Shown: one piece after another, positions 3,229 to 43,503 of the stretch
How the letters are laid out: every line of letters starts with the position of its first letter
Numbering within the stretch: the stretch's first letter is position 1
From: an uncultured Spirochaetales bacterium
Lineage (GTDB): Bacteria > Spirochaetota > Spirochaetia > Sphaerochaetales > Sphaerochaetaceae
Reading direction: 5' to 3'
Assembly: GCA_949282255.1 (NCBI GenBank)
Contig: CASDPA010000002.1
Location: 1-64,000 of the forward strand
DNA: 64,000 bases
Made by a program: the position numbers and the translations under genes
Notes under the pieces: model-generated
What the model was told of the DNA's origin: nothing
The model's input: only the letters and a program-made list of their open reading frames with translations
The model's database searches: none

Positions 3229-3420
3229 TCAATCCGTAGACAAATTGTAGACACTCTTTCGTAATATCCTTAATACGAAAGGGGACACTCCTTCCCCTTT
3301 CGATAGCTCATGAATTTTATTCCAAAGCTCCTCATCTTCTGGTTTGAAAATAATTGTTGCTTTGTGAATTTTTGATTGATATTTCTTATCTGCTTTTTTC
3401 TGTGCTTCGGAATATCCCAT
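3229..3420 (-). CDS. Small ribbon-helix-helix-like protein
   Basis: A 63-aa basic protein whose centre (ATIIFKPEDEELWNKIHELS) resembles the strand-then-helix start of Arc/MetJ-type DNA-binding proteins. It is the last gene of a four-gene leftward cassette controlled by the promoter at 4283-4311. That promoter contains a 16-bp perfect palindrome, so autorepression by this protein is a plausible but unproved role. Its final codons overlap the left integrase arm-type repeat. Confidence 0.5.
   Translation of the reverse strand: MGYSEAQKKADKKYQSKIHKATIIFKPEDEELWNKIHELSKGEGVSPFVLRILRKSVYNLSTD
3236..3253 (+). repeat. Left arm-type integrase repeats
   Basis: Two direct copies of GTAGACA (3236-3242 and 3247-3253) are spaced exactly 11 bp start to start. 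The same pair with the same spacing occurs at 43489-43506 beside the right att site, preceded by identical flanking bases (AATCCGTAGACAAA). This placement fits arm-type binding sites of a tyrosine integrase. Confidence 0.6.
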
Positions 3421-3424
3421 AACC

Positions 3425-3619
3425 TTATCCTTTCATCAACCTCCTTACCTCTGCATTAGTTAACTTGTAATCTGGTATTATCTCACCTTCGATTCTGTCC
3501 TCTTTAAGAGCGTTCTTCAAATCCTCCCATGCTTCTCTTATCTTCTTAGATGTCTTTCTCTCTCCCCAGAAGTCAATCATGCATGGCTCGAAAAGTTTCA
3601 TCATTTCTACCTTAGTCAT
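3425..3619 (-). CDS. Small phage protein, unknown function
   Basis: A 64-aa protein with no motif I recognise: charged, mostly helical, ending in a KLTNAEVRRLMKG segment. It lies four bases upstream of the ribbon-helix-helix-like gene and three bases after the preceding gene, clearly in the same transcript. Confidence 0.6.
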   Translation of the reverse strand: MTKVEMMKLFEPCMIDFWGERKTSKKIREAWEDLKNALKEDRIEGEIIPDYKLTNAEVRRLMKG

Positions 3620-3622
3620 TCC

Positions 3623-3901
3623 TCACACCTCCAAATGGGTAATGCTCTGAAATTCTTCAAGCATCTTTTTCACAATTGCTTTTACATCATTCTCATCGTA
3701 TCTTATGATTTCCTCTGCGTAACAGTCCGCTTCCAAGTCTGGGGAATCATAGATTCCCACTCTTGCTTTCTTACCAGACTTCCCAACTGTCATCATAAAC
3801 CAGTATTCATCTCCATCTTCTGTTTCAACCAATATGTATTCTGCGTTCTTCCTGTCGTTTATGATGTTGACCATCTTTTCAATTGTTAATGGATTAATCA
3901 T
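3623..3901 (-). CDS. Small phage protein, unknown function
   Basis: A 92-aa protein. The ATG at 3901 is preferred over the longer frame to 4015 because AAGGGGA lies seven bases upstream and the longer version would overlap the previous gene by almost 100 bp. The sequence alternates strands (AEYILVETEDGDEYWFMMTV) and acidic stretches, suggesting a small alpha-beta fold. Second gene of the cassette. Confidence 0.6.
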   Translation of the reverse strand: MINPLTIEKMVNIINDRKNAEYILVETEDGDEYWFMMTVGKSGKKARVGIYDSPDLEADCYAEEIIRYDENDVKAIVKKMLEEFQSITHLEV

Positions 3902-3917
3902 TTTTATCCCCTTATTA

Positions 3918-4253
3918 TTAACATTTTTCATTTTCGACTTCTGAATATTCCCAATCAATCTTACCTTTCTCAATAGAGCAATAAGCTGTGGTGCAATAAT
4001 CGTTTCCTTCATCATCTGATGTGGAGAACCAGACTACCAGACTCCATGTGTTCCATGTACTATAAACCGGTTTCCAGTTCCTTTCAAAACTTACAACGAT
4101 TGTGTCGTTAAGAAATTCAACTGTGAGTTCATCGCATTTCTTGACCTTCTTCAATTCATTCTGTATAGCCTCGCATACAGCTTTGACACTTTTCTTGGAG
4201 TAATAACCACTCTTGGTGTATCCAATCTTTTCATTGACTTTTAAATTCTGCAT
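3918..4253 (-). CDS. Small phage protein, unknown function
   Basis: A 111-aa protein, first gene of the separately promoted cassette, with AGGAG just upstream of its ATG. The N-terminus is basic and helical (KSVKAVCEAIQNELKKVKK); the C-terminal half is aromatic and strand-rich (RNWKPVYSTWNTWSLVVWF) with three cysteines near the end. I do not recognise the family. Position after the lysis genes and beside attL, with an independent strong promoter, is typical of phage morons expressed in the lysogen. Confidence 0.6.
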   Translation of the reverse strand: MQNLKVNEKIGYTKSGYYSKKSVKAVCEAIQNELKKVKKCDELTVEFLNDTIVVSFERNWKPVYSTWNTWSLVVWFSTSDDEGNDYCTTAYCSIEKGKIDWEYSEVENEKC

Positions 4254-4282
4254 ATCGAATCTCCTATAACTGTTATACCCTT

Positions 4283-4311
4283 ATTATAGTACGTACTATA
4301 TTTAATGTCAA
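4283..4311 (-). promoter_or_regulatory. Perfect consensus sigma-70 promoter with palindromic operator
   Basis: On the minus strand TTGACA (4306-4311) and TATAAT (4283-4288) are separated by exactly 17 bp. A 16-bp perfect palindrome (TATAGTACGTACTATA, 4285-4300) covers most of the spacer and the upstream part of the -10, an ideal repressor site. It drives the cassette 4253-3229 and, lacking a visible terminator, could read on into rnhA. Confidence 0.85.
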
Positions 4312-4313
4312 TA

Positions 4314-4344
4314 GAAAATTCCCTACCTGATTTCTCAGATAGGG
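4314..4344 (-). terminator. Terminator of the late lysis operon
   Basis: The arms 4321-4330 and 4335-4344 form a 10-bp stem in the minus-strand RNA, with one G-U pair and a four-base loop. AAUUUUCU follows. It starts a few bases after the stop of the XhlA-like gene and insulates the late operon from the promoter at 4283-4311. Confidence 0.7.
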
Positions 4345-4350
4345 ATAAAT

Positions 4351-4593
4351 TCATAATTTGTTTTCAAGATTTGTAATTCGTACTTCGTGCTTGTCCACTC
4401 TTCTTACAACCTCATCAAGTTCCTTACCATGCAAGGTTATTCTTTCATCTCTTATCCTATCACGTTCGAGCATGTTGTCTATGCTGTCTCTCATACGGGT
4501 TATATTCGAATTGATTTTAAAAAGTGGTGTCAGCACACTTATTAATGTGCCTATACCTAATACTATGTAACCAACCACATACACCTCATCCAT
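4351..4593 (-). CDS. XhlA-like holin accessory protein
   Basis: An 80-aa protein with one N-terminal membrane segment (VVGYIVLGIGTLISVLTPLF, about residues 5-24) followed by a charged coiled coil (RMRDSIDNMLERDRIRDERI, then KHEVRITNLENKL). This is the inverse-topology layout of haemolysin XhlA-like phage proteins, which assist holins. It overlaps the holin stop codon, so the two are co-translated. Assignment is by architecture and position, not by a signature motif. Confidence 0.55.
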   Translation of the reverse strand: MDEVYVVGYIVLGIGTLISVLTPLFKINSNITRMRDSIDNMLERDRIRDERITLHGKELDEVVRRVDKHEVRITNLENKL

Positions 4594-4853
4594 CAGTTAG
4601 CCCCCTTGTTCTTCATGTTTCTGATGGACTCGAAAAGACCTGTGGAAGCCCATCCTGATACTACACCCTGAGCGATTATGTCAAAAGAAACAGCCTTGCT
4701 CATCAAGCAGGCTATCACTATCCCAACTACCCCGTTGATTATGGGTATGTACCCGTTATCAATCTTGGATACGAAATTCTTAACAATTAATCCCACCAAG
4801 TAGCATATCACTACAATAGTCGGAGAAATTAATGTTGATAAAATATTTTCCAT
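4593..4853 (-). CDS. Phage holin
   Basis: An 86-aa membrane protein with hydrophobic segments near residues 8-26, 38-52 and 55-72, ending SGWASTGLFESIRNMKNKG, a tail shared by many small phage holins. It would permeabilise the inner membrane at the end of the lytic cycle. It follows the tail genes and overlaps the XhlA-like gene. No endolysin lies next to it, which is unusual. Confidence 0.7.
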   Translation of the reverse strand: MENILSTLISPTIVVICYLVGLIVKNFVSKIDNGYIPIINGVVGIVIACLMSKAVSFDIIAQGVVSGWASTGLFESIRNMKNKGAN

Positions 4854-4862
4854 GTTAAATCC

Positions 4863-7583
4863 TTAAATCTTAACCCTTAGATATCTTGAAGAATCGATAT
4901 ATAATCTACCAGTTTCATATGAATCAATTTCATCTGATGTTACCCCCTGCCCTTCAATTCCTGGAATATTAACAACAAGTCGGTTACCACCTTGGAGAAC
5001 TTCAAGAGTAACATCTTGTGTGAAGTAACATCCTGAAAAATTGTCACCAAAGTTATATGAATTTGAAGTAAACAAATATCCATGAGTTGTATCACCAGAA
5101 TAACCAATCCCTAAATTTGCCAGTTTTATTTCTTTTCCATCGATATCGTAAAAAATAATCCTGTCCTCAGAATAAGAGCCAAACGTATAACTGTCATAAG
5201 AAAGCTCCAATTTAAAGAAAGCCACGTTACTATTTCCAGAAAGACGACATCTAGTTTTAACTCCGTTACTAGTTTGAGGAGGATTATACCCAAGCTGAAT
5301 TGCTAGATTGCGTACTTGCTTGATTCCTTGAGAAGCATAAAATATTACAGTTTTGTATACAGATGATTCATCAGGTTGAGCTTTAATTGACTCGCAATCA
5401 AAAAACCCTTTAAATTGCCCATTTGTGATGATTGCAGTCCCCGAAATGGAGGAATTGATGAAATCTGCATTTTGAGCAGATATGGTTCCATTTGAAGTGT
5501 CAATTTTGAAGATGATATTATTATTGTATTTCACTTCCCAAATTGGATATTCTAATTTATTTCCATCATCATCTATAGTTGAAACCTGAAATTCGAAATT
5601 GTTAGTTACAATGTGAAGATTCCTACTTATAAACATATTAGTAAAAACAATGTTTGCCGCAAGTTTCTTAAACCAAGATGAATATTTGGTATTTTCAACG
5701 GTATCGGTATTTAAAGCATCTTCAAGACATTTACTCATAATGTCTGCATACTCGTTAACAGAGACATTCCCGCTCAGCTCTGCGCTTTCCCATGAAGCAC
5801 CATTATAGACATAAGGATTTCCTGCCAAAAATTCAGCAAAACTCTTAGTGCATAAGAAGTAATCACCTTTTATTAAATCCGTTCCTTCTGATGTCTGTGT
5901 AGGTACTGAGTTCTCGCATGCCCCTAGATATAACGCACCTCCAGTCTTATCTATGACTGTTAAATTGAGAGTATCTTTCAGTACAGTTCCATCATATAGA
6001 TTCACACTGAAAGCTTCTGCTTTCTTATATGGGATGTTTCTGGAATAACTTCCACCCTCTCCTACTTTTTCACCGTCGATGTACCATAAAGGTACTGCAT
6101 TGGGATATCCGCTGATATCAGCAGTAAATATTATGGTCTGTGCATCTGTACGTCTATCATTACGGATTACTACAGTTGAATCAGCTTTTATCTTGAATTG
6201 TTTTGCATCCATCCCCTGATATGAAGGATAGTAGCATTTAGTCTCTGTCCCATCGTTGAATTTAGTGGTGACCCTAGTCCATAGCCATTTCCCCTGCTGA
6301 GGTGAGTAAGTGGTACTGAAAGACTCGTCATCAGGTTTTTCCGTGCCACTCTCCGATATGGCATATGCAAATTCATACCCCGTTATTTTTATTGATTTAC
6401 CATCAACAGGTTTTGTCTTATTATCGTTTACAATCTGCTCTACGAAATTGGGAATCACCTTGCCAAGCGTGAATTTATTGCTTGATGGATTCTGCAAATT
6501 CAACTCAAGTTTCGTGATGTTATAGGAATCCTTTATTCCATGTTTATCTGATATGACATCAACCTTCTTTCCTATCTGGAAGAAATCAACATCGTTTAGA
6601 CACGACATATCGACTGCCGTTATTTCGATGCTGTTTGAAAGTCCTGTAAGATTATCGACATCTGCTATCAACTGGTCTTTCCAATCATCTGGATATCCAT
6701 CATACGAACGTTCTTCAATTATCAGGCCATATTTCTCATAAAGTGGAATATTAACCAGATAGATGCCATAATCACCAAATTGCTCATTTCTACTTTCAGA
6801 ATCAGGGACAACCCCCATCTGCCTATGAAGTGTAGTTGTCGGAATCTGTAACGTGCTTATGTTGCAAGGCCAATTAGTATCTTCTCTAGTATCTCCATGA
6901 GGCAATATAGCTGTCACAACTTTATCACCTTGAATAGTCTGAGTAAGGTCTAAAAGATTAATCCCAAAAGATACATCCTGATTGATGCTTTCATAATCCT
7001 CTGTCCAATCGATATAGACACCTTCATCCTCGTGTCGGAAGATGAAATGACCACCGCACCTATCTATCAAATCATCAAGTGCTTCTATGCTTTTAATGAA
7101 CTCCATGTTCGCATATCCGATTTCTTCTGTTGAACCTGTAATTGATATGTTTCCAATCAAGAATCTTCGGTCTTCCGATACCTGAGAATTGTAGTCCGTT
7201 ATAATCTGAGTGAAGATTTCAATCGGAGTGAATGGAGTGATTTGTTCCTCCCCATATTCATCTTCTCCTCCATCCTGTCCCAAGGGATAGAATATTCCAT
7301 CGTTGAAGAAAGCATATTCCCCTTCACAAGTAATCTTCCTGTCCTTGTAGAAAGACTCTTCGCTATCTAAGACCCTTCCTCTGAATATGATTACATCATT
7401 TTGCTTGACTAGGATTGTCGATGTGATTTTTTCGAACGCTGAATAATATGGATGGTCGGGGTAGATGGTAAATTCCAGAGAACCAGCCTTGTTTTCTTCA
7501 AGTGTCAATTTCAGTCCTGTAATGCTTCTCTGCTCCATCCTATCATCATAGAAGCACTCATCATTCAGATAAATTTTAAACAT
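4863..7583 (-). CDS. Tail tip (Tal-like) structural protein
   Basis: A 906-aa protein directly downstream of the Dit-like gene and overlapping it, the position of tail-associated hub proteins in siphoviruses. The N-terminal ~390 residues resemble the hub/prophage endopeptidase-type tail domain (KAGSLEFTIYPDHPYY, IDRCGGHFIFRHEDEGVYID). A central segment (395-560) contains beta-sandwich-like sequence with a repeated style of PxxYxDGE and WTRVTTKF. The C-terminal third is strand-rich (NGTISAQNADFINSSISGTA), like fibre shafts. I see no lysozyme or peptidase active site. It should form the baseplate hub on which the receptor-binding proteins sit. Confidence 0.8.
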   Translation of the reverse strand: MFKIYLNDECFYDDRMEQRSITGLKLTLEENKAGSLEFTIYPDHPYYSAFEKITSTILVKQNDVIIFRGRVLDSEESFYKDRKITCEGEYAFFNDGIFYPLGQDGGEDEYGEEQITPFTPIEIFTQIITDYNSQVSEDRRFLIGNISITGSTEEIGYANMEFIKSIEALDDLIDRCGGHFIFRHEDEGVYIDWTEDYESINQDVSFGINLLDLTQTIQGDKVVTAILPHGDTREDTNWPCNISTLQIPTTTLHRQMGVVPDSESRNEQFGDYGIYLVNIPLYEKYGLIIEERSYDGYPDDWKDQLIADVDNLTGLSNSIEITAVDMSCLNDVDFFQIGKKVDVISDKHGIKDSYNITKLELNLQNPSSNKFTLGKVIPNFVEQIVNDNKTKPVDGKSIKITGYEFAYAISESGTEKPDDESFSTTYSPQQGKWLWTRVTTKFNDGTETKCYYPSYQGMDAKQFKIKADSTVVIRNDRRTDAQTIIFTADISGYPNAVPLWYIDGEKVGEGGSYSRNIPYKKAEAFSVNLYDGTVLKDTLNLTVIDKTGGALYLGACENSVPTQTSEGTDLIKGDYFLCTKSFAEFLAGNPYVYNGASWESAELSGNVSVNEYADIMSKCLEDALNTDTVENTKYSSWFKKLAANIVFTNMFISRNLHIVTNNFEFQVSTIDDDGNKLEYPIWEVKYNNNIIFKIDTSNGTISAQNADFINSSISGTAIITNGQFKGFFDCESIKAQPDESSVYKTVIFYASQGIKQVRNLAIQLGYNPPQTSNGVKTRCRLSGNSNVAFFKLELSYDSYTFGSYSEDRIIFYDIDGKEIKLANLGIGYSGDTTHGYLFTSNSYNFGDNFSGCYFTQDVTLEVLQGGNRLVVNIPGIEGQGVTSDEIDSYETGRLYIDSSRYLRVKI

Positions 7584-8230
7584 TACAAACTCCCCATCCG
7601 ATAACGTATCGTTATCGTTCCTGTCCCTGTCACTTTGAGTATGTTCTCACCTTCCACAAGCCTTATATCAGGACTTGTGAACTCCTGTTCCTGTGGACTG
7701 ATTATAGTCTTATCATTGAACAACAGATTCATCACCGATGTAGTCTTGATAATCGGATTCACAGGCTTCCTGTTGTTAATCAACCTCAGTGTTACCGATT
7801 CCGTGACATCTTTTTTTATAAGCGTCTCATCTTTGAAATACTTGTAAGGGTCTGCCGTGATATCGAATGTCATCGACCCAATCACTTTGTCCGTCTTCCA
7901 CTTGTCGATTGAAACCCTTCCGACATAATACCAATCCGAATCATCATCAAAGACTATGTTGAATCTCCGTCCATGAAGTAGGTTTTGACACTTGCTGAAA
8001 ACATCCCAGAAATATTTTCTCTCTGTCAACGAGATGAATGTGAGGGAGATGTCCCTGTTTTCATAGAAGACATCTCCGAACACTTCCGTTAAATCAATAG
8101 AACCATCTCCACCTTCGATGTCCACATAGTTGTCTTTAACCTGTGGAGCGGAAATATCACGGGAACTCAAAATCAATCCTAAATCCTTATAGCTGTCTAT
8201 AAGACCGAATCTCACATTATGTAATGGCAT
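7583..8230 (-). CDS. Distal tail protein (Dit-like)
   Basis: A 215-aa protein between tape measure and hub, where Dit proteins lie. Start ATG 8230 overlaps the tape measure stop (TGATG) and has GGGGGA upstream; the TTG at 8233 is less likely. The central motif RRFNIVFDDDSDWYYVGRVS followed by GSMTFDITADPYKY is typical of the Dit/tail protein N-terminal beta-barrel family. It should form the ring joining tail tube to hub. Confidence 0.85.
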   Translation of the reverse strand: MPLHNVRFGLIDSYKDLGLILSSRDISAPQVKDNYVDIEGGDGSIDLTEVFGDVFYENRDISLTFISLTERKYFWDVFSKCQNLLHGRRFNIVFDDDSDWYYVGRVSIDKWKTDKVIGSMTFDITADPYKYFKDETLIKKDVTESVTLRLINNRKPVNPIIKTTSVMNLLFNDKTIISPQEQEFTSPDIRLVEGENILKVTGTGTITIRYRMGSL

Positions 8231-16245: not shown

Positions 16246-17115
16246 TGTTTTAAATTCGTTAAAATTTCGTGCTTCTATGAATCCGTCACCATCATCTTTC
16301 AAAGTCCATTCCGCACGTTGTAATAATCGGCAACGACAGTTGACATCCTCGCTTGCCACTCCGAATCCCGATGGATAGAGTGTCCTGTGTCCGTTCACTT
16401 CAAAATACTCTTCAATCCGTTTGATTTGATTGTGAAGTTCCGAATGACTCGGCCTGATTCTCCCATCAAGAATACCACACCACTGTTTGAATATATCAGC
16501 CCCACGCTTCTTGGCATCCATCTGTGCTTGATATGTAGCCTCGTTCACTATCCTCTGTCCCTCTGTCCTTGCAATCCTGTAAGCATTGTACCTTCCAGTA
16601 TTCATCTTGAGGTCAATGGATGTTGCTACCTGAGCATACATTTTTCCCGTAGCTATAGACCTGGATATTTCATCTCGCACTGTCCGTTTGAGTTTATCCA
16701 AGCTTATACCTAACGAGTCGTAAAGCGATTTTGAAAGCTTGGAATCAATCGTTATAGCTTTGACCATTTTTTCAGGGTCTATAGGCATTATGAGAGGTAC
16801 ACCTTGTCCTTGCATATCATAAAAAGCACCAAGATAGCCGTTTTCATAACATCTTGTGCGATAATCCTCTATGCTCTGATATACACCGTTATGGATTCTC
16901 TCAAGAGTGTCATCAATCTGCTTTTTCAAAGCCCTCTGCCACTTCGCCTGATATATCTTTGATGGAAGTCCCGTCTTTTCAAAATCCTTCATCAACTTCT
17001 CTATCCGTGCCTGTATATTCTTACTTGCCTCACGATATATCATCTCAAGATATTCAAGTATCTTCTTCTCCTCTCCGAGCTGATATGTCATCAATTCCTT
17101 CTGTCGTTTCGTCAT
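16228..17115 (-). CDS. MuF-like minor head protein
   Basis: A 295-aa protein overlapping the portal gene by about 60 bp. The C-terminal half has the Mu gpF signature: YRIARTEGQRIVNEATYQAQ, then WCGILDGRIRPSHSELH and ASEDVNCRCRLL. The start is ATG 17115, with GGGG seven bases upstream. MuF proteins bind the portal inside the capsid and are probably ejected with DNA. The usual toxin or peptidase C-terminal fusion is absent here. Confidence 0.9.
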   Translation of the reverse strand: MTKRQKELMTYQLGEEKKILEYLEMIYREASKNIQARIEKLMKDFEKTGLPSKIYQAKWQRALKKQIDDTLERIHNGVYQSIEDYRTRCYENGYLGAFYDMQGQGVPLIMPIDPEKMVKAITIDSKLSKSLYDSLGISLDKLKRTVRDEISRSIATGKMYAQVATSIDLKMNTGRYNAYRIARTEGQRIVNEATYQAQMDAKKRGADIFKQWCGILDGRIRPSHSELHNQIKRIEEYFEVNGHRTLYPSGFGVASEDVNCRCRLLQRAEWTLKDDGDGFIEARNFNEFKTKAKDI

Positions 17116-18514
17116 CAATCAACCCCTGCAATTCGACATCATCTGGTGGAAGCTTGTCTTTGATTTCATCGTAATCTATATCAAGGATTTCGCAGATGTT
17201 CTTCACTATTGTTTCGTTGTCAAACTTCTCTGCAATCATCAATAGTGTTGCAATCTCAGTCTGTTTGGCTTGTGCCTCAGCTCCCTTAATCTGAGCGTTA
17301 TCAAGTGCATTGGTTATCGTCTCCCGTTCAAAATCAAAATATACATCTCTGACACTGTAAGCAGTTCCATGCATTGTATTGATTTCATCCAGTACAACTT
17401 TGACAAGTTTCTTCATTAACTGTTTAAGCTTGATTTCAAGCTTGTTGCATTTGAGGTCAAGCAATGTGTAACGTGATTTGATAACGACATTTGTAATGTT
17501 CCCATCCCCTACTTTCTGAGAATTGAATCCCATCCCAAATCTATAGATGTTATCTTCATCTAAAGCAAGTTTTGTTTGCCTAGCCTGAAAAGGAATATCA
17601 ACCGTCTTTATCTCTATTCCACCTTCGGAATCAACACCGACAGCCTTTCTTGCTTTCACATCCTTGACAAGTTCATCAATATCCTCACCCTGATAGTTCT
17701 TAACCACCCATACACCTTCGGCAAAATCCTGTAGATTATTGGAAAGGCCACAGCTCATCATATCGTAGTCATCTATCAACGGTTTTGTAACAAATACCTC
17801 GGATGTACGCTTCCTATTTCTGTCAAGTCTGAAAAATGGAATGTAACCCAATCCATAACCATAGTCATCATTGTTTTTTGAAAAGACAACATGAGGCTGT
17901 GGATTATATTTTACATTCTTATCCTTCTTAACTCCCTTACTTCCTTCCTTGATGAAATAACCGACTTCATTTTTATCCCATACCTGAATCTTGATGATAG
18001 GTTCATTGTCATCGTCATATCTATCGACATAGTGATATATGACATAATCCGCATGGTCATCCGTATCAACCGCTCTTACTTCTATCACTCCCAGACCATC
18101 AGCCCATTTGAAAGAGAGTCTTTCATCCTCATCCTTGTATGCATAAACGTAATCGTATCCTTTCACAACAACACCAGTTAAAAGGTCGTTAAGTTCCGCA
18201 TCAAAATCCTCATCAAAATACGAATCCAGAAGTTCCTGCAACTCGGGAATATCGCTCTTCACATGAGGTCTGTCACCACTGAGCATATACTGCACTTCTT
18301 GGTCTACCAGCTCTGTGAAAAAAGGATGTGGAATCTTTATATTGCTTCTGGTCGTATCCTCTATGTAATGTCCATCCTTATCAGGTATGTAAAGCTTGTA
18401 ATTTAAAATGTCATGCTTACCTTCGTAATATCTCTGCCCTATCTTGGCCTGTCTTTTTTCCTTATTTGCTAAATCGTTGTTAAGAAAATAATCAATCTCG
18501 CTAGGTTTTAGCAT
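17054..18514 (-). CDS. Portal protein (SPP1 gp6-like)
   Basis: A 486-aa protein with the family's order of motifs: RQAKIGQRYYEGKHDILNY near the N-terminus, an acidic middle (DVVVKGYDYVYAYKDEDE-like), PFFRLDRNRKRTSEVF, and LDDYDMMSCGLSNNLQDFAEG, the characteristic helix segment. It forms the dodecameric DNA channel at the capsid vertex. It lies downstream of the DGR cassette rather than directly after the terminase, which is unusual. Confidence 0.9.
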   Translation of the reverse strand: MLKPSEIDYFLNNDLANKEKRQAKIGQRYYEGKHDILNYKLYIPDKDGHYIEDTTRSNIKIPHPFFTELVDQEVQYMLSGDRPHVKSDIPELQELLDSYFDEDFDAELNDLLTGVVVKGYDYVYAYKDEDERLSFKWADGLGVIEVRAVDTDDHADYVIYHYVDRYDDDNEPIIKIQVWDKNEVGYFIKEGSKGVKKDKNVKYNPQPHVVFSKNNDDYGYGLGYIPFFRLDRNRKRTSEVFVTKPLIDDYDMMSCGLSNNLQDFAEGVWVVKNYQGEDIDELVKDVKARKAVGVDSEGGIEIKTVDIPFQARQTKLALDEDNIYRFGMGFNSQKVGDGNITNVVIKSRYTLLDLKCNKLEIKLKQLMKKLVKVVLDEINTMHGTAYSVRDVYFDFERETITNALDNAQIKGAEAQAKQTEIATLLMIAEKFDNETIVKNICEILDIDYDEIKDKLPPDDVELQGLIDDETTEGIDDISARRGEEDT

Positions 18515-18515
18515 T

Positions 18516-18680
18516 TCACATCTCCATCAATCTCTCAAATTCCCCCTGAGATAATCTTCCATCTTCAACATCCTCAATCATGAGTTCTTTAACTTCATCC
18601 TTATATTTCTCAGGACAATCCGAAAAGAACTGCGTACCAGCTTCTATCCTGTTTCTCCAAATCTTAGCCATCGCACTCAT
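18516..18680 (-). CDS. XkdX-like small tail-fibre-associated protein
   Basis: A 54-aa protein. The third in-frame ATG (18680) is served by GGAGGG six bases upstream and follows the stop of the preceding gene. The pattern MAKIWRNRIEAGTQFF ... GRLSQGEFERLM is common in short proteins that follow tail fibre genes in Gram-positive-type siphophages. Exact function unknown. Confidence 0.65.
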   Translation of the reverse strand: MSAMAKIWRNRIEAGTQFFSDCPEKYKDEVKELMIEDVEDGRLSQGEFERLMEM

Positions 18681-18682
18681 AA

Positions 18683-18955
18683 TCATCCCTCCATGCTGAG
18701 TTCGCATAATGCGTCTTCCAACCCTGCAATACCTTCCGTGTTCTCATCTGTCATAGCTAAAAGGTCTATCACATCCTTTGGTAGTGTAGTCTCCTTATAA
18801 GTCCATTTTGCTGGAACTTCCTTCCCCTCTTCATCCGTATATCCTTCATGAAAAACGAAATCCTTTCTGAGATAAACCACCTTGGAGGAGCTTTCACTCT
18901 CTCTTACAGGTGGTTTAACCTCGCTTATGCATTCAACGTCATGCCACTTCGTCAT
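18683..18955 (-). CDS. Fibre-associated phage protein, unknown function
   Basis: A 90-aa protein starting at ATG 18955, which has AGGAG eight bases upstream and overlaps the end of the reverse transcriptase gene by 17 bp. The middle (YLRKDFVFHEGYTDEEGKEV) and the DVIDLLAMTDENTEGIAGLE end recall small proteins located after tail fibre genes. It does not look like the four-helix Avd accessory protein of known DGRs, but it is the only small gene coupled to the reverse transcriptase and should be considered. Confidence 0.6.
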   Translation of the reverse strand: MTKWHDVECISEVKPPVRESESSSKVVYLRKDFVFHEGYTDEEGKEVPAKWTYKETTLPKDVIDLLAMTDENTEGIAGLEDALCELSMEG

Positions 18956-20021
18956 TATTTCTTCTCCTGTCATATGTGCTAATATATCTTCGCATCTTTC
19001 CAATATTTACTTTCGGTTCTATGTACCTCATCCAATATCCCTTGGTGGTCGTACTCTTGTAATACCCGATGTATGATGTCATCTGTCTGCAATCGTAAAT
19101 CGTAGCTTTCGTTTTCCTTGAAATGCGATTTGCTTTTCTTCTTGACTTCATCAATATGGATTTTCTTATTGTGGTTCTGTTTCGATAGAATCGATATCCC
19201 ATGAAATCCAAATCCCTGCCGATTTCCTTTCCGTCTTTCTTTTGATAATTGAATTTAACAACCTGCCAATTGGCTTTAAGTTCAAGACCATCTTCGGAAA
19301 GTTTTTTCATTATCGCTTTCCTCATCTTATGTAATTCACGCTTGTTATCTGAGAATATGACCATATCATCCATGTATCGATAATAAGCAGGGACTTTCAG
19401 TTCTTCCTTCAACCAATGGTCAAAATTCATGAGATAGAAGTTTGCAAGCCATTGTGAAAGATAGAAACCTATCGGTATCCCTTTCGGTACAACATCTATG
19501 ATTGTGAAAAGAACTTTTAGAAATCTTTTATCCCTTATCACCTTGGAAAGCTTTTCTTTCAACTTCTCATGTGGAATGGATTCAAAATACTTCTTTACAT
19601 CTAATTTCAGATAATATCGGATGTTGCGATTCTTCTTTATGAGTTTTTCAATGTGCTTCTTTCCAAGTGTAGCGCCTCGATTCGGAATTGATGCATAGGA
19701 ATGCTCATACATCCCTTTCATGAAAATCCTCTCCATCACAATACACATTGCATGTTGTACTACAAGTTCAATAAATGTTGGTACAAGTATCGTTCTCTTC
19801 TTTCTACTTATTCCGTCATATATTACTTTAGGTTCATGTTCGTCATTCTTGTAATCCGCAAGTCTTTCTCTCACTTTGATTTTGAATGACTCCACATCTT
19901 TCAACGCTTCCTTGACATCTCTTCTTCTCTTCCTTTTCTTGCCTTTTGAAGCGTTTTTAATTGCAAGGTCAAGAACAGCATCGCTGTTACATTCTTCAAA
20001 GAGTCCGTTATAGCTCTTCAT
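18939..20021 (-). CDS. DGR-type reverse transcriptase
   Basis: A 360-aa protein. Catalytic Asp141 lies in LKLDVKKYFESIP; the second motif, GIPIGFYLSQWLANFYL (residues 181-197), has the I-G-x-x-x-S-Q form diagnostic of diversity-generating retroelement enzymes, not group II introns or retrons. YMDD is at 216-219. RGATLGKK (115-122) and the basic C-terminus after 290 also fit. It copies the template-repeat RNA with errors at adenines and supplies cDNA for replacing the variable repeat. GAAGGAAA precedes the ATG. The template repeat lies about 120 bp upstream and the target gene before that. Confidence 0.95.
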   Translation of the reverse strand: MKSYNGLFEECNSDAVLDLAIKNASKGKKRKRRRDVKEALKDVESFKIKVRERLADYKNDEHEPKVIYDGISRKKRTILVPTFIELVVQHAMCIVMERIFMKGMYEHSYASIPNRGATLGKKHIEKLIKKNRNIRYYLKLDVKKYFESIPHEKLKEKLSKVIRDKRFLKVLFTIIDVVPKGIPIGFYLSQWLANFYLMNFDHWLKEELKVPAYYRYMDDMVIFSDNKRELHKMRKAIMKKLSEDGLELKANWQVVKFNYQKKDGKEIGRDLDFMGYRFYRNRTTIRKSILMKSRRKANRISRKTKATIYDCRQMTSYIGYYKSTTTKGYWMRYIEPKVNIGKMRRYISTYDRRRNNDEVA

Positions 20022-20139
20022 TTTCCTTCTATCCTCTTATCCATGTTGAGCATATCGCTTACTAACAGATACCTGCATCGAGTTGATTTTTTCCAAGCGG
20101 AAAGGTGTAAAGGTGGGATTAAGGAATATTTGATAGAAA

Positions 20140-20247
20140 TAAAGACCTGCCTCAATGTTCCAATTGACATTGCTAACAGTGTTGTTCACATTCACGTAGA
20201 ACACTCCGAAATTAGCACCATTGCTAACGTTACCACCGTGATACGGA
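20140..20247 (-). repeat. DGR template repeat (TR)
   Basis: This 108-bp stretch aligns without gaps to 20357-20464. It matches at 91 positions and differs at 17, all adenines on the coding strand of TR. TR codons at the variable sites are mostly AAC/AAT, which by adenine mutagenesis can reach many residues while avoiding stop codons. It sits between target gene and reverse transcriptase, the standard DGR order. Confidence 0.97.
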
Positions 20248-20315
20248 CAAGCCCGACCCCACCAGAACACCTATATACCTAAAATTCACATATGACAGAA
20301 ATAAAAGCTTTCATA

Positions 20316-20331
20316 AGGGGGAAATCCCCCT
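20316..20331. promoter_or_regulatory. Hairpin/cruciform just after the variable repeat
   Basis: A 6-bp perfect stem (AGGGGG/CCCCCT) with a four-base loop lies six bases past the target gene's stop codon. In the Bordetella phage BPP-1 DGR, a hairpin with a four-base loop at this place promotes retrohoming, so this is its likely counterpart. It could also act as a weak transcript end, but it lacks a U-run. Confidence 0.6.
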
Positions 20332-20337
20332 AACCCC

Positions 20338-21699
20338 CTATACAGGTGGTTTAAAGGAAAGACCCGCCCCAAAGTACCAATAGACAAGGCCAACAGTGTT
20401 GTCCACATGCACGCAGAACACTCCGAAATAAGCACCAGAGCTAACGTTACCACCGCGAAACGGATATCTATCAGAGACATCATCGTTAAACCATAATCCA
20501 TCTGCATAATAAGTAGATGATGATGCTCCATCTCCTACTTCCACAGGTACGCATGAGCCTGATATATCGAACAACATGTTCTTGATATATGCATTTTTAT
20601 ATCCCTGTCCTATGCCGCTCTCTCCATTATACCTGATAGGCTCGTTGTTAAGATTTATATAGCCGTCTCCGTTATTGTTATACCCTTCGACTGCTGAGCC
20701 GTCCTGCATACCCCATGTATACTTAACCTTATAGACTCCATTATCAACAATAAGTCCTGCAAATCTCTGCCAGATGTTGCCCCACCAGTTTTCCATGCCG
20801 AAAACCTTTACAATATCACCTGTGTTGTTTGAGGCATTCTTACCATAGAAAAGACCTTTGTCATTTCCTGCCCCACTAGCTTTGATACCGTAATAATTCT
20901 CTCCCGTAGGATGTGATTCATCGTACCCGTTCCAACCATAGCCATATTTGGACTGTGTATCTGTCGATTTGCACATCAAGACCAAAAGCATGTTGATAAG
21001 CATGATGTCCGACCATACCTCTGTGTACCAATAAACCGCATCAACTGGATTATTGGCTTTAGCAAGAGTAATCTCCTGCGTACCATTCTTGTTATGACAT
21101 GGCATCTGTCCTGAAATACTTCTAAGCCTTGCAACACCATCAGTACCAGTAACCTCAGAGCCGTTGTAAATCCTAGTATAAAAGTGGTCTACCTCCACAC
21201 CCTGATTATTTGTGAAAGACCAGCAATGATAATTCTCATCAACCTTGTAATCAGCAATATATACATCCGCACTCTTACCATCGGATGACGGCTTGATACA
21301 CATCCATATCTTCTTCCCGTTCTGCCCCCATTCCATCATCGCATTACCTTCATAATCAACATTTGCGATATCGGAAGCCTGACCGTTCGCTTTCTTTGTG
21401 TAGTCGTTCTCATCCAGATAATAATCAACTGTTCCATCATACTTGACCATGCACGGCCTCGGCATGAAGAAAGCATCTTTCCAGCCTCCCCAAACGAACT
21501 CATCGTTAGTGAAATCATAATAAGCAGGTTCTAATCCTACCGCATTTTCAAGATATGTCACTTTGTCATCTGGATTGGATTCATTGCCGTTTATGTGGAA
21601 TCCATAAACCGTTCCACCGCCTCTTATAGCCTGTGTGACCGCCTGTATCGCCTGTACTACGTTTTTCAACGTATCATCACTTGCCACTCTGTTACTCAT
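20338..21699 (-). CDS. DGR target: variable C-type-lectin-like tail-tip protein
   Basis: A 453-aa protein. After a short helical N-terminus (residues 1-27) comes a large domain with formylglycine-generating-enzyme/C-type-lectin features (GMENWWGNIWQRFAGL, then DRYPFRGGNVSSGAYFG). The last 37 or so residues (412-448 of 453) are the variable repeat. There TR-encoded Asn, Tyr, Ser or Glu have become Ser, Tyr, Cys, His, Asp, Gly, Leu and Phe, while scaffold residues stay fixed. This is the ligand-binding face in known DGR proteins. The gene overlaps the coiled-coil stalk gene by 8 bp, pointing to a shared receptor-binding assembly. Confidence 0.92.
   Translation of the reverse strand: MSNRVASDDTLKNVVQAIQAVTQAIRGGGTVYGFHINGNESNPDDKVTYLENAVGLEPAYYDFTNDEFVWGGWKDAFFMPRPCMVKYDGTVDYYLDENDYTKKANGQASDIANVDYEGNAMMEWGQNGKKIWMCIKPSSDGKSADVYIADYKVDENYHCWSFTNNQGVEVDHFYTRIYNGSEVTGTDGVARLRSISGQMPCHNKNGTQEITLAKANNPVDAVYWYTEVWSDIMLINMLLVLMCKSTDTQSKYGYGWNGYDESHPTGENYYGIKASGAGNDKGLFYGKNASNNTGDIVKVFGMENWWGNIWQRFAGLIVDNGVYKVKYTWGMQDGSAVEGYNNNGDGYINLNNEPIRYNGESGIGQGYKNAYIKNMLFDISGSCVPVEVGDGASSSTYYADGLWFNDDVSDRYPFRGGNVSSGAYFGVFCVHVDNTVGLVYWYFGAGLSFKPPV
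20357..20464 (-). repeat. DGR variable repeat (VR)
   Basis: The 108 bp match TR (20140-20247) except at 17 TR adenines, of about 29 present. Homology stops abruptly on both sides. It ends 17 bases before the stop codon of the target gene, and the invariant 3' end (GGGTCTTT) is the likely homing-initiation region. Confidence 0.97.
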
Positions 21700-22495
21700 C
21701 TATCACCTCGCACAAATATCCTTCTTCATCTATTGCAAATCTATTACCAAGAGCTATAAAACCTTCCATACCTTCTACAAGTTCCTCAGCTTCATCATGT
21801 AACTGCTTAGTTTGATTTTTCAGCTCATTGACTTCGGTTTTTATCTGCCCTGTGTCATCATGAATCTGCTGTGTGTCCGTCTTAATCCGACTGGTTTCAG
21901 TCTTTAATTGGCTTACTTCCTCTTTTGTGTTATTTACATTTTCTTTTACAACGAGTGCATTTTCATAAATTTGAGAAGTATCATTCTTGATTTTCTGCGT
22001 GTCTGTCTTAATTTGATTGGTTTCTGTTTTAAGCTGAGAAACATCATTCTTCAAACTTTCGACATCGGTTTTTATAGCCGCAGTATCGGTCTTTATCTTT
22101 TCAGTGTCGTCTTTGATTTTCTCTGTCGCTTTCTTGATATCGTTCGCTTCCTGCAATACCTTGTCGAACGTAAGCAAATCCGATTCTTCATAGACGTATT
22201 CATCCGGTCTCTGTCTAGGTATCAGATTGATGACACCTGACATTTCAACATACTGCCCATTATCATCAAGAGCGTTGCAATAGAATCTTATCTTCTCATC
22301 AAGAGCTAAGACCTCATTAGGAATCTGGACTTTTATCACACCATCTTCTTTTTTAGTCTGGACTGTGAAAGCCCCTGTTCCTTTTGAATTATAGAAATTA
22401 ACCGTATTACATTCTTTGATATCTATAAGTTTGAGATATCTACCTGTCTCCCACTGATAGACCTGCATCCTCCCATCATCTAATTCCCATGTCAT
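21692..22495 (-). CDS. Coiled-coil tail fibre/baseplate protein (BppU-like N-terminus)
   Basis: A 267-aa protein. Residues 1-105 form a beta-rich domain (GTGAFTVQTKKEDGVIKVQI, then IRFYCNALDDNGQYVEMSG) like the N-terminal anchoring domain of baseplate upper proteins. Residues ~110-245 are a long coiled coil built from near-repeats of IKTDTxxIKNDT. It likely docks to the hub and projects the DGR-diversified protein encoded next. It overlaps the target gene by 8 bases and the spanin gene by about 20. Confidence 0.7.
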   Translation of the reverse strand: MTWELDDGRMQVYQWETGRYLKLIDIKECNTVNFYNSKGTGAFTVQTKKEDGVIKVQIPNEVLALDEKIRFYCNALDDNGQYVEMSGVINLIPRQRPDEYVYEESDLLTFDKVLQEANDIKKATEKIKDDTEKIKTDTAAIKTDVESLKNDVSQLKTETNQIKTDTQKIKNDTSQIYENALVVKENVNNTKEEVSQLKTETSRIKTDTQQIHDDTGQIKTEVNELKNQTKQLHDEAEELVEGMEGFIALGNRFAIDEEGYLCEVIDE

Positions 22496-22727
22496 TTCTT
22501 ACCCCTCTGTAAAAATCCTCCCAGCCCTGAATTACAACTTCCAACTTCTTGCTATATATCATTAACTCCCCAACATTTGACTCCATATCATCCGTTAATG
22601 TCGGCCTAGAAGGAACAATCAATTCAAAATCTGGAAGATTGGGTGTGATATATCGTGTCTCACAACCCGTTATTCCAATTATCAATAAGATTATCGATAG
22701 GTATTTTTTCATTTTTCTCATCATCAA
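22476..22727 (-). CDS. Outer-membrane spanin-like lipoprotein (Rz1-like)
   Basis: An 83-aa protein with a signal peptide ending in the lipobox IGITGC, so the mature protein is a lipoprotein of about 62 residues. It starts inside the preceding membrane/coiled-coil gene in another frame, overlapping it by 68 bp, the classic overlapping Rz/Rz1 arrangement. Spanins fuse inner and outer membranes at the end of lysis, consistent with a host that has an outer membrane. The mature part is less proline-rich than many Rz1 proteins. Confidence 0.7.
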   Translation of the reverse strand: MMMRKMKKYLSIILLIIGITGCETRYITPNLPDFELIVPSRPTLTDDMESNVGELMIYSKKLEVVIQGWEDFYRGVRNDMGIR

Positions 22728-22932
22728 TCACCTGAATCTTTTCCGTCACATTTTTAGTAACATTCAATGCTTCCTGTGTAGCGTTCTTTTCCATCTCACT
22801 CTTTTCAAGCCTTTCAGATGTCTCCTCAAGCTTGCTTTCCACTTTCTTTCTTTTGAATCTCTCAATTCCGAACAGAAAACCAAAAATAAGTGTGATACCA
22901 CCTATCACATAATTGAAAATCTTTTTAATCAT
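22660..22932 (-). CDS. Inner-membrane spanin-like protein (Rz-like)
   Basis: A 90-aa protein with one N-terminal membrane segment (YVIGGITLIFGFLFGI, residues 8-23) followed by a charged coiled coil to about residue 70. This is the i-spanin architecture, and it overlaps the lipoprotein gene in the expected way. The start overlaps the stop of the metalloprotease gene by 8 bases. Confidence 0.7.
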   Translation of the reverse strand: MIKKIFNYVIGGITLIFGFLFGIERFKRKKVESKLEETSERLEKSEMEKNATQEALNVTKNVTEKIQVIDDEKNEKIPIDNLIDNWNNGL

Positions 22933-23239
22933 TGAAATATGACCTTACAATATCGTTCATCTTATCGCCGTAATACCCAAAGAAATCTGCCATCTGCTCA
23001 TCGGTAAATGTTTGAAAATACATGAAACCATATGCGAAAAGAAATGCATGAACTAATTCATGACGGAGAGTATTCATCTTCTGTTCTCTCGACAAATCAT
23101 TAGCAAGCGTGATTATCCTTGGTTCATACTCGCACATTCCTAAACACATTCCGCTTGCATCGAGTCTTCCCTTGATTTCATCCCTGTTTTTCTCTTCTAT
23201 AGTCCATATCTGCTCATTAATCATAGTTGTAAATTTCAT
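22925..23239 (-). CDS. Zinc metalloprotease-like phage protein
   Basis: A 104-aa protein with the zinc motif HELVH (in TLRHELVHAFLFAYG) and a downstream acidic TDEQMADFFG that could supply the third ligand. The start is ATG 23239, with AGGAG eight bases upstream; the longer frame overlaps terL. The family of small HExxH proteins beside terminase genes is widespread, and its target is unknown. It lies immediately upstream of the spanin pair, so a contribution to lysis is possible. Confidence 0.65.
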   Translation of the reverse strand: MKFTTMINEQIWTIEEKNRDEIKGRLDASGMCLGMCEYEPRIITLANDLSREQKMNTLRHELVHAFLFAYGFMYFQTFTDEQMADFFGYYGDKMNDIVRSYFND

Positions 23240-23250
23240 ATTCCATTCTC

Positions 23251-24495
23251 CTAATGAATCCATTTGCCTTTTATGATGTAATCCTCAAGTGCATATCTCA
23301 TCGCATCCATGAGGTGATTGAAATCATCTATCGGGGTATTGATTTTCTTTCCGAACTTATCCTCAGCCCAACTGTAATTTGAAATCTCGGTGAGGAAATT
23401 AACGCATCTAGGATGTACGACTATATGCAAATCCTGTATCCACTGGATACCGTTGTTAACACTATCACGACCTTTCTTCGCACCTTTTATCCTAAGCCCC
23501 ATTCCTGCCAGCTCCTTGATGCTCTTAGGTTCTGCTGAATCAGCCGTTATATGAGCTTTGACATATCCTAATTTCTCTATCTCATCATATATGTCCTTAT
23601 TGCTCATATTTTTCTTATACATCTCGTCCCAGACATACAAGACCTTCAATTTCTTATCCAAAACACCGATGAAAAGTGCTGACGGGTCATTCGTGTACCC
23701 GAAATCCAATCCTGCAACAAAAACATGGTCATTATCGAACTGTGGAAGTTCAAATCTCTTCTCTTCCCAGTCCTCATATATGACACCTTCGACTATTCCC
23801 CAGTTTCCCAGCCCTGCAACCTGATAACGTCTCGGATTGCGTACCCTCATGTCTTCGAACAATCTTCTATCCGAATCGTCAAGCCACTCGTTGCATAAAT
23901 ATGTGGTGGTCATCGCTAAGACTTCTGGATTAGGTGTATCGAAAAATCTTTTCTTGAGCCAATGTTTCTCGTTCCATGGGTTAAAAGTCAAAACAACCTG
24001 TTTGAAATACCCATCTGGAACTTCACCTCGGATTGCCTCATTTACTACATCGAAATCGGATTCCCTTGATATTTCATATGCTTCTTCAAACCATACCCAA
24101 CATAAGAAGCCAACAGAAACGGATATCGATGTGATTTTCAACGGGTCATCCAACCCTCGAAAATATATCTTCTGACCAGTTGGAAGATATTCAGCTTCAA
24201 GGGGGTTGTTTCGGAATTTCCAGAAACCCTCAGCCTTGCATCTCCTGACAGCCCATTGTAAATCCGCAAAACATGAATCTTTCAACGTTCTGAAAGTTTT
24301 TCTCACGACAAGTAGATTTGCCAACGGAAATTTCATAATACCAAGAACAAATTTAATAGCCGTGTTTTTAGACTTCTTACTAGCACGACTCCCTTTGACG
24401 ACAAGATAACGGCCTCTCCATCTCCAATACTCACCGTAGCCCCCACCTATCAGCTCAGGTATCCTTACAGGAACATACTCAGTCTGGTATTTCAT
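23251..24495 (-). CDS. terL: Terminase large subunit (PBSX type)
   Basis: A 414-aa packaging motor. The Walker A variant KGSRASKKS is at residues 34-42; the Walker B/catalytic region is CWVWFEEAYE near 135. The C-terminal nuclease domain starts with GLDFGYTNDPSAL and includes HITADSAEPKS and DDFNHLMDAMRYAL. It overlaps the small subunit gene by 17 bp. The product cuts concatemers and pumps DNA into procapsids. Confidence 0.95.
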   Translation of the reverse strand: MKYQTEYVPVRIPELIGGGYGEYWRWRGRYLVVKGSRASKKSKNTAIKFVLGIMKFPLANLLVVRKTFRTLKDSCFADLQWAVRRCKAEGFWKFRNNPLEAEYLPTGQKIYFRGLDDPLKITSISVSVGFLCWVWFEEAYEISRESDFDVVNEAIRGEVPDGYFKQVVLTFNPWNEKHWLKKRFFDTPNPEVLAMTTTYLCNEWLDDSDRRLFEDMRVRNPRRYQVAGLGNWGIVEGVIYEDWEEKRFELPQFDNDHVFVAGLDFGYTNDPSALFIGVLDKKLKVLYVWDEMYKKNMSNKDIYDEIEKLGYVKAHITADSAEPKSIKELAGMGLRIKGAKKGRDSVNNGIQWIQDLHIVVHPRCVNFLTEISNYSWAEDKFGKKINTPIDDFNHLMDAMRYALEDYIIKGKWIH

Positions 24496-42240: not shown

Positions 42241-42261
42241 ATGCAATGGAGGACTACACGA

Positions 42262-43503
42262 ATGGCTCAATTAATCACGAGAAAAAGAGGAAAGTTCTGG
42301 GAATATGCTTTTGAAATCGCATCTATTGAAGGAAAAAGGAAAAGAATCTCAAAAAGCGGATTTCAAACTAAATCAGAAGCATTGAAGGAAGGGAGCAAGG
42401 CAAAAGCAAGATACGATAACACTGGATTGACATTTGTACCCACCGACATGTCGGTTTCCGATTATCTCGATTACTTCTATAAGGTCTATGTGATGAGTGA
42501 ATTAAAACCCAACTCTCAGGAGTTCTGGGAGTATTTCATAAGGATTCACTATAAGCCCTATCTTGGAAAATACAGATTGAACTCCATCACACCTGCTGTA
42601 ATTCAGGAGTTCCTATACGAATGTAAGAAAAAAGGATATGCAAGACCAACACTCATACATCTGAGAAACAATCTGAAAGAAGCATTCAACTATGCGATTA
42701 ACCCATGTGGATTCATTGAGGACAATCCAGTAGCTAAAACATCGTTACCGAAAACGAGCAAGGAACAGGTGAACCCACACCACCTGATTTCTCTGGAAGA
42801 TTATCACTCTATCATGGAATATTTTCATTTTGGGAACCGCTATCACGTCATGCTTCAACTTGGATGGAATCTTGGATTGAGACTTGGAGAGATTACAGGC
42901 TTGAGATGGAGTGATATAGATTTCGATAAACGGGCTGTAAGAATTGAGAAACAGGCGATATATTGCAACAAGATACCAGAGCGAAAAAGCAACTTCTATA
43001 TTGAAACTCCTAAGACTGAAAATTCAATCAGGACTGTTTCTTTCGGAGAATCTCTCAAGACTCTTCTTTTAAAAGAAAGAAAGCGTCAGAAAGAGAATGA
43101 ATCGAATTATGGGATTTATTATACGAAACAATATCTAGTCGATGGTAAGTTCATAATCGAACATCAGGTCATGGATGATTTCAAGGATGGAGAGGAACTT
43201 GATTTCATTTGTCTGGATGAAAACGGAAGATGGGTCAATCCTTCCATGTCCACATATTGCACACGAGTGATTACCAAGAAGCTTGGAATAGATTTTGATT
43301 TCCATTCTTTAAGAGTTTCAAATGCTACACATCTGATAGACAATAAGGTTGACATAAAAGTTGTCCAGCAGAGATTAGGTCATGCGAATATCACAACAAC
43401 CTATAACAGTTATGTGAGAGTTACTGAGGATATGAATGATGAAGCTGTCTACGTTCTAGATGAAATTTTGTCTACAGATGAAAAATCCGTAGACAAAACG
43501 TAG
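42262..43503 (+). CDS. int: Tyrosine integrase
   Basis: A 413-aa protein. The ATG at 42262 has GGAGG nine bases upstream, so the longer frame from 42241 is rejected. An N-terminal AP2-like arm-binding region (FWEYAFEIASIEGKRKRIS) is followed by a SAM-like core-binding domain. The catalytic residues appear in order: Arg in LGLRLGEITGLRW, Lys in TPKTENSIRTV, HSLR, LGHANITTTY with the Tyr nucleophile near NSYVRV. It recombines attP with the 3' end of the parvulin gene. The gene runs into the attP arm repeats. Confidence 0.97.
   Translation: MAQLITRKRGKFWEYAFEIASIEGKRKRISKSGFQTKSEALKEGSKAKARYDNTGLTFVPTDMSVSDYLDYFYKVYVMSELKPNSQEFWEYFIRIHYKPYLGKYRLNSITPAVIQEFLYECKKKGYARPTLIHLRNNLKEAFNYAINPCGFIEDNPVAKTSLPKTSKEQVNPHHLISLEDYHSIMEYFHFGNRYHVMLQLGWNLGLRLGEITGLRWSDIDFDKRAVRIEKQAIYCNKIPERKSNFYIETPKTENSIRTVSFGESLKTLLLKERKRQKENESNYGIYYTKQYLVDGKFIIEHQVMDDFKDGEELDFICLDENGRWVNPSMSTYCTRVITKKLGIDFDFHSLRVSNATHLIDNKVDIKVVQQRLGHANITTTYNSYVRVTEDMNDEAVYVLDEILSTDEKSVDKT

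Follow-up and report, generated by a model that had tools for sequence, protein, structure and literature searches.

An Avd-less diversity-generating retroelement in a spirochaete prophage, apparently borrowed from phages of Gram-positive gut bacteria

Within a 64,000-nucleotide stretch of a gut-type spirochaete genome (the window), it is highly probable that a complete Avd-less diversity-generating retroelement (DGR) diversifies the receptor-binding protein of a temperate phage, and that its cassette was acquired from phages of Lachnospiraceae-type hosts. DGRs are a known class of device that recodes the tip of a protein used for binding hosts, and this element is a real, intact DGR of the already known Avd-less 'target-TR-RT' type. 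An earlier note on this DNA had called the DGR complete, and the intact reverse transcriptase (RT), template repeat (TR), variable repeat (VR) and target with a variable-protein fold uphold that description. New beyond the note are the lack of Avd, an RNA in the TR-RT spacer, the cassette's kinship with Firmicute phages and the flagellin-less host family. The element is laid out as follows:

21699 down to 18939, minus strand: target gene, VR, TR and RT gene, in that order
20338..21699, minus strand: target gene for a variable protein of 453 aa with a C-type-lectin fold, matching PHROG 5302 'tail protein' (profile match and AlphaFold2 model)
20357..20464 (start 20357/20358), minus strand: VR, at the 3' end of the target gene (repeat alignment)
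20140..20247 (start 20140/20141), minus strand: TR, with 29 adenines (repeat alignment)
20026..20102, minus strand: RT-18-like structured RNA in the TR-RT spacer (Rfam model match and covariation)
18939..20021, minus strand: DGR reverse transcriptase, 360 aa, motifs IGFYLSQ and YMDD (ORF list, profiles, tree)
Spacing, minus strand: VR 20464-20357, then 110 bp, TR 20247-20140, then 119 bp, RT 20021-18939

The ORF list and the repeat alignment return the positions of RT, TR and VR that the earlier note had given. TR and VR lie on the same strand, 217 bp apart, and align without gaps over 107-108 bp. They mismatch at 17 sites in 108 bp, every one an adenine in the template, as the note had said, and there is no non-adenine difference in 107 bp. 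The substitutions are A>T (7), A>G (6) and A>C (4). Our recount of their coding effect differs from the note, which had 12 of 14 changed codons altering the amino acid: 13 of the 14 complete changed codons are non-synonymous, the silent one being GCA>GCG. Of the 17 changes, the final one to three (20152, 20148, 20140) fall at the 3' end of the repeat, in bases where relatives carry fixed TR/VR differences, and these may not be products of mutagenesis. AAC or AAT makes up 9 of the 35 TR codons, none can be turned into a stop by A>N substitution, and the potential repertoire is about 2.5e15 proteins. No further copy of either repeat occurs elsewhere in the 2.35 Mb genome, so this is its sole TR/VR pair.

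Two similar 107-bp repeats lying close together could also arise without any DGR mechanism, by a plain duplication whose copies later acquired point mutations. However, had the mismatches fallen anywhere in the 108-base TR, the probability of all 17 hitting one of its 29 adenines would be 1.9e-12. A DGR RT is also adjacent, and the same architecture recurs in dozens of loci. The adenine restriction and the RT together refute this explanation in practice, and we give it almost no weight.

The kinship of the enzyme itself supports a DGR. For the reverse TRANSCRIPTASE (RT), the best solved match is 8ub7, a 328-residue RT (E 1.8e-27; next match 1.5e-11). This entry is labelled 'Reverse transcriptase', and we take it to be the bRT of Bordetella phage BPP-1. 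Against profiles of group II introns, retrons and defence RTs, scores stay far under the cut-offs; for retrons, which were compared by profile only, the score of 58 bits compares with a cut-off of 235. In a 70-row tree the RT is split from group II intron RTs (SH-aLRT 100) and falls in a 12-row clade (support 95) with RTs of Lachnospiraceae MAGs, rumen phages and viral contigs. It clusters more broadly with Avd-less phage RTs, including that of crAssphage LMMB, in a 38-row clade (SH-aLRT 99). The solved match and this placement among DGR RTs bear out the DGR-type RT of the earlier note. That note had named grouping with retrons or group II introns as the result that would speak against it, and the tree separates the RT from group II introns.

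RTs from the same spirochaete family sit elsewhere among the DGR branches, in some cases accompanied by Avd (locus L034 has bAvd), and in a Treponema MAG (L048) an HRDC gene adjoins the RT. We rejected inheritance of the cassette from same-genus DGRs: forcing the RT into a clade with same-genus spirochaete RTs gave an AU p of 0.0004. As separate observations, loci L030-L042 represent at least two further DGR lineages in this family, one Avd-less and phage-like and one with bAvd or Avd-sized ORFs, and the single-contig genome G113, also of this family, has thirteen group II intron RT matches.

There is no Avd-sized ORF between VR and RT, and thus no avd gene in the cassette of the kind that marks an Avd-dependent, BPP-1-type element. 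We also considered Avd supplied in trans, and rejected it: the bAvd model (PF22296) has no match across the genome, and the same model detects Avd in the control loci L034 and L054. About a quarter of DGRs have no accessory gene (PMC7290462). Avd-less 'target-TR-RT' phage DGRs are lineage 3 of Wu et al. as cited in that paper, which assigns crAssphage LMMB to this lineage. The gene order, the lack of avd and an RT in one clade with that of crAssphage LMMB place the window element in this type.

The spacer between TR and RT holds a structured RNA. It matches Rfam RT-18 (RF03021) with 38.5 bits (E 1.2e-4); because this falls below the gathering score of 41.3, we call it RT-18-like. RF03021 exceeds the gathering threshold at the same place in twelve related loci, one more locus matches RT-4, and a spacer RNA is present at this position across the Avd-less clade. 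In a sequence-only alignment of 15 spacers, 92.5% of cells in the RT-18 helices are paired, against 37-46% in slid controls. Fifteen of 17 pairs show changes on both sides, with a covariation score of 0.63 against 0.25 when shuffled. Single-sequence folding did no better than shuffles (z 0.0) and is uninformative. Among 299 genomes from one Lachnospiraceae family, RT-18 matches six times, on each occasion directly before a DGR RT. A survey of 393 genomes of the spirochaete phylum matched RF03021 in this genome only, which is a lower bound because strict filters were applied to a sample and L030, from the same genus, scores 52 bits. Among named Avd-less phages, FP_Epona carries RT-4 and LBR48 RT-18, with weak matches in Arawn (RT-4) and crAssphage LMMB (RT-17).

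The BPP-1 spacer brings in RT and Avd as a complex and also provides the adenine used for priming (PMC12875486). By analogy, the RT-18-like RNA may play this role here without Avd. At 20022-20035 in the window, the RNA extends at its 3' end into the Shine-Dalgarno sequence (AGAAGG) of the RT gene; translation of RT could therefore be governed by RNA folding or by binding of the RT. These comparisons tie the orphan Rfam RNAs RT-4, RT-17 and RT-18 to the Avd-less DGR lineage, and a limited literature search found no prior report of this link.

Two features after VR resemble homing signals:

20343..20352, minus strand: AAACCACCTG, directly 3' of VR, putative initiation-of-homing-like element (comparison with clade members)
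20316..20331, minus strand: GC-rich hairpin AGGGGG-ATTT-CCCCCT, putative target-site stem-loop (analogy with BPP-1)

A motif resembling AAACCACCTG follows VR in most clade members and was not seen after TR. The hairpin begins 26 nt after VR, just beyond the target stop codon; hairpins of differing sequence follow VR in most clade members, and some relatives have none. The BPP-1 DGR has a counterpart stem-loop after VR (PMC12875486). Homing would take place at the VR of this element.

VR forms the last ~35 codons of the target, whose AlphaFold2 model (pLDDT 84, pTM 0.88) has the fold of DGR variable proteins. The best fold match is Thermus aquaticus TaqVP (Z 24.1 over 282 residues), from another host and only 14% identical in sequence, followed by Treponema denticola TvpA (Z 11.8) and Bordetella Mtd (Z 9.2-9.8). 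Formylglycine-generating-enzyme-type folds, which are of the same class, also match. The C-type-lectin-like target of the earlier note thus agrees with the model. The note's tail-tip location is an inference: the gene sits between lysis-type and portal genes, outside the tail module. Its product probably binds the receptor. Three neighbours surround the element:

21692..22495, minus strand: protein with an N-terminal beta domain and a long coiled coil, likely a fibre stalk or adaptor
18683..18955, minus strand: small gene following RT, with a weak match directly after RT in L024
18516..18707, minus strand: small gene, 63 aa, weak NCBIfam CD1375-family match

The first overlaps the target start by 8 bp, and its product, a beta domain plus a 140-residue helix, is likely a stalk; BppU_N is not among the matches listed for it. 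A 56% identical copy of the 18516..18707 product follows the DGR RT in L076.

The cassette lies within a prophage:

3231..3244: likely attachment-site repeat AATCCGTAGACAAA, prophage left end
43484..43497: likely attachment-site repeat AATCCGTAGACAAA, prophage right end
42241..43503, plus strand: tyrosine integrase of the prophage
23251..24495, minus strand: terminase large subunit, outside the cassette
22476..22932, minus strand: two small membrane/lipoprotein genes, putatively spanin-like
17054..18514, minus strand: portal protein, outside the cassette

About 40.3 kb lie between the 14-bp direct repeats, and the right repeat overlaps the end of the integrase gene. Integrase, terminase, portal, capsid and tape measure genes are all found between the repeats, so the prophage proposed earlier stands. 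A small M78/IrrE-like metallopeptidase gene (weak Pfam match) occupies 22925-23263 of the window, between the terminase and spanin-like genes.

The host is a spirochaete, as the earlier note had it. Its ribosomal protein S2 is 90% identical within the genus and 81-82% within the family; identity drops to 68-69% for Treponema and to 46-61% for other phyla. ArgG, at 43-44% to both phyla, is uninformative as a host marker. A search for flagellin found none in the host genome and none in six further genomes from this family, three of which are single-contig; it returned four copies in each of three Treponema genomes. Sphaerochaetaceae are a flagellum-less family, which this absence fits.

The closest cassettes are found in Lachnospiraceae and rumen phage loci (L043, L045, L072, L074), with RTs 50-57% and targets ~42-52% identical. 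In these and further loci (L043, L045, L072/L079, L074/L081, L002-L011), RT and target alone match the window, barring weak single matches in a few, and no terminase, portal or capsid gene is common to them and the window. RT and target are closest (about 45-57% identity) to those of phages with which the prophage has no capsid or packaging gene in common, indicating that the cassette moved as a module. Whole-phage transfer from Firmicutes was rejected because the loci with the closest cassettes have no backbone genes in common with the prophage. The cassette appears to be borrowed from phages of unrelated Gram-positive gut bacteria, and its nesting among Firmicute phages suggests transfer from Firmicute phages to the spirochaete phage. 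In L045, which has the closest target relative, the RT matches in two frames (6001-7051); this possible frameshift may have left the L045 element inactive.

By its backbone, the prophage is part of a different, large group of phages; its best 80 terminase relatives are 61-67% identical. Terminase and portal in this group usually lie ~20 bp apart, and larger gaps hold proteins with BppU_N, H-type-lectin or collagen matches. The window cassette is located between the spanin-like and portal genes. L167, a sister phage from the host's bacterial family whose terminase is 63% and portal 57% identical, has two spanin-like genes in its terminase-portal gap, similar to the 22476..22932 pair, and no cassette. 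Its own DGR lies elsewhere:

4124-7614 of L167 (contig of same-family genome G094): DGR, with target 5506-7614, VR 5524-5624, TR 5334-5434 and RT 4124-5194

This DGR is complete (10 of 10 mismatches at template adenines), distantly related (RT 29% identical, on a very long branch) and placed between head-morphogenesis and scaffold genes; a cassette common to both sister phages was rejected on this ground. After its RT and upstream of the scaffold gene, at 3582-3644, L167 has an Rfam GP20-b RNA (43.5 bits, gathering score 36.2). Together, the gap contents and the L167 comparison indicate that the cassette entered a receptor-cargo slot, and that the two sister phages hold different DGRs in different slots.

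The position between terminase and portal might instead suggest that the target is not for host attachment and serves, for example, as a head or packaging accessory. We consider this improbable, given the BppU_N and lectin proteins in the same gap of related phages, the stalk-like coiled-coil gene overlapping the target start, the PHROG tail-protein assignment and the TaqVP/Mtd fold.

Relatives provide a view of allele turnover. Between L043 and L003, in the closest clade, all 19 VR differences fall at template adenines, TR has 0 differences in 103 positions and the flanks differ by 3-4%. L014 and L017 differ at 17 VR sites, all at template adenines, and nowhere else in ~2.7 kb; for L012 and L013, template adenines account for 13 of 14 VR differences. 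To judge from sequence, these near-identical pairs behave as would be expected of working DGRs. VR variation at non-adenine sites, which the earlier note had named as evidence against its reading, is almost lacking among them.

The collections searched held no second allele or sibling of the window element (closest relatives ~50% identical), so its own activity is something we infer. It could be a fossil that diversified its target formerly and is inactive in this prophage, with VR a frozen allele; a single known allele and an integrated phage would suit such a history. We think this unlikely, since RT, TR, target, RNA and hairpin each remain intact, drift would have added non-adenine TR/VR differences where there are none, and alleles turn over between near-identical relatives in its clade. 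Recent activity of the window copy is a reasonable reading of its sequence.

The closest known systems include the Avd-less DGRs of four named phages:

crAssphage LMMB, Butyrivibrio phage Arawn, Faecalibacterium phage FP_Epona and Lactobacillus phage LBR48: named Avd-less carriers

They share the gene order, the absence of avd, the 38-row RT clade and an RT-4, RT-17 or RT-18 spacer RNA. In contrast, the window RT is only 33-40% identical to theirs, its host is a spirochaete, and their cassettes lie at the end of the tail module. The Lachnospiraceae and rumen loci L043, L045, L072 and L074 have the same RNA and architecture, with capsid and packaging genes not in common in the flanks compared. 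BPP-1 (Mtd) is alike in A>N mutagenesis, target-TR-RT order, C-type-lectin target, structured spacer RNA and stem-loop after VR. It differs in an extra gene, bbp7 (avd), between mtd and TR, an RT in another DGR branch, and a spacer RNA of another family (Rfam Phage_DGR). The Treponema denticola DGR also belongs to a spirochaete and varies a C-type-lectin protein, TvpA, but is chromosomal, not phage-linked, and has an HRDC accessory gene (PMC4891356).

We propose that TR is transcribed jointly with the structured spacer RNA and that ~13 residues of the target's C-type-lectin domain would change, so that individual phage progeny would be able to bind different surface structures. The cassette would comprise target, TR, RNA and RT, probably plus the neighbouring fibre genes, and would have come from phages of Lachnospiraceae-type hosts into an unrelated spirochaete phage, where it would occupy the receptor-cargo slot. 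More speculatively, and more likely wrong than right, RT-4, RT-17 and RT-18 RNAs would recruit and prime without a protein partner in Avd-less DGRs, and target-TR-RNA-RT units would be self-contained cross-phylum tropism modules, here passing from Gram-positive hosts to an outer-membrane spirochaete without flagellin.

Spirochaete phages are barely known; the text of a 2024 survey of 38 Treponema prophages has no mention of DGRs or reverse transcriptases (PMC11144348). This locus names a receptor-binding protein, marks its varied residues and offers a route to the receptor. A tropism-switching cassette is seen here crossing phylum borders as a unit, into an unusual host for an Avd-less DGR.
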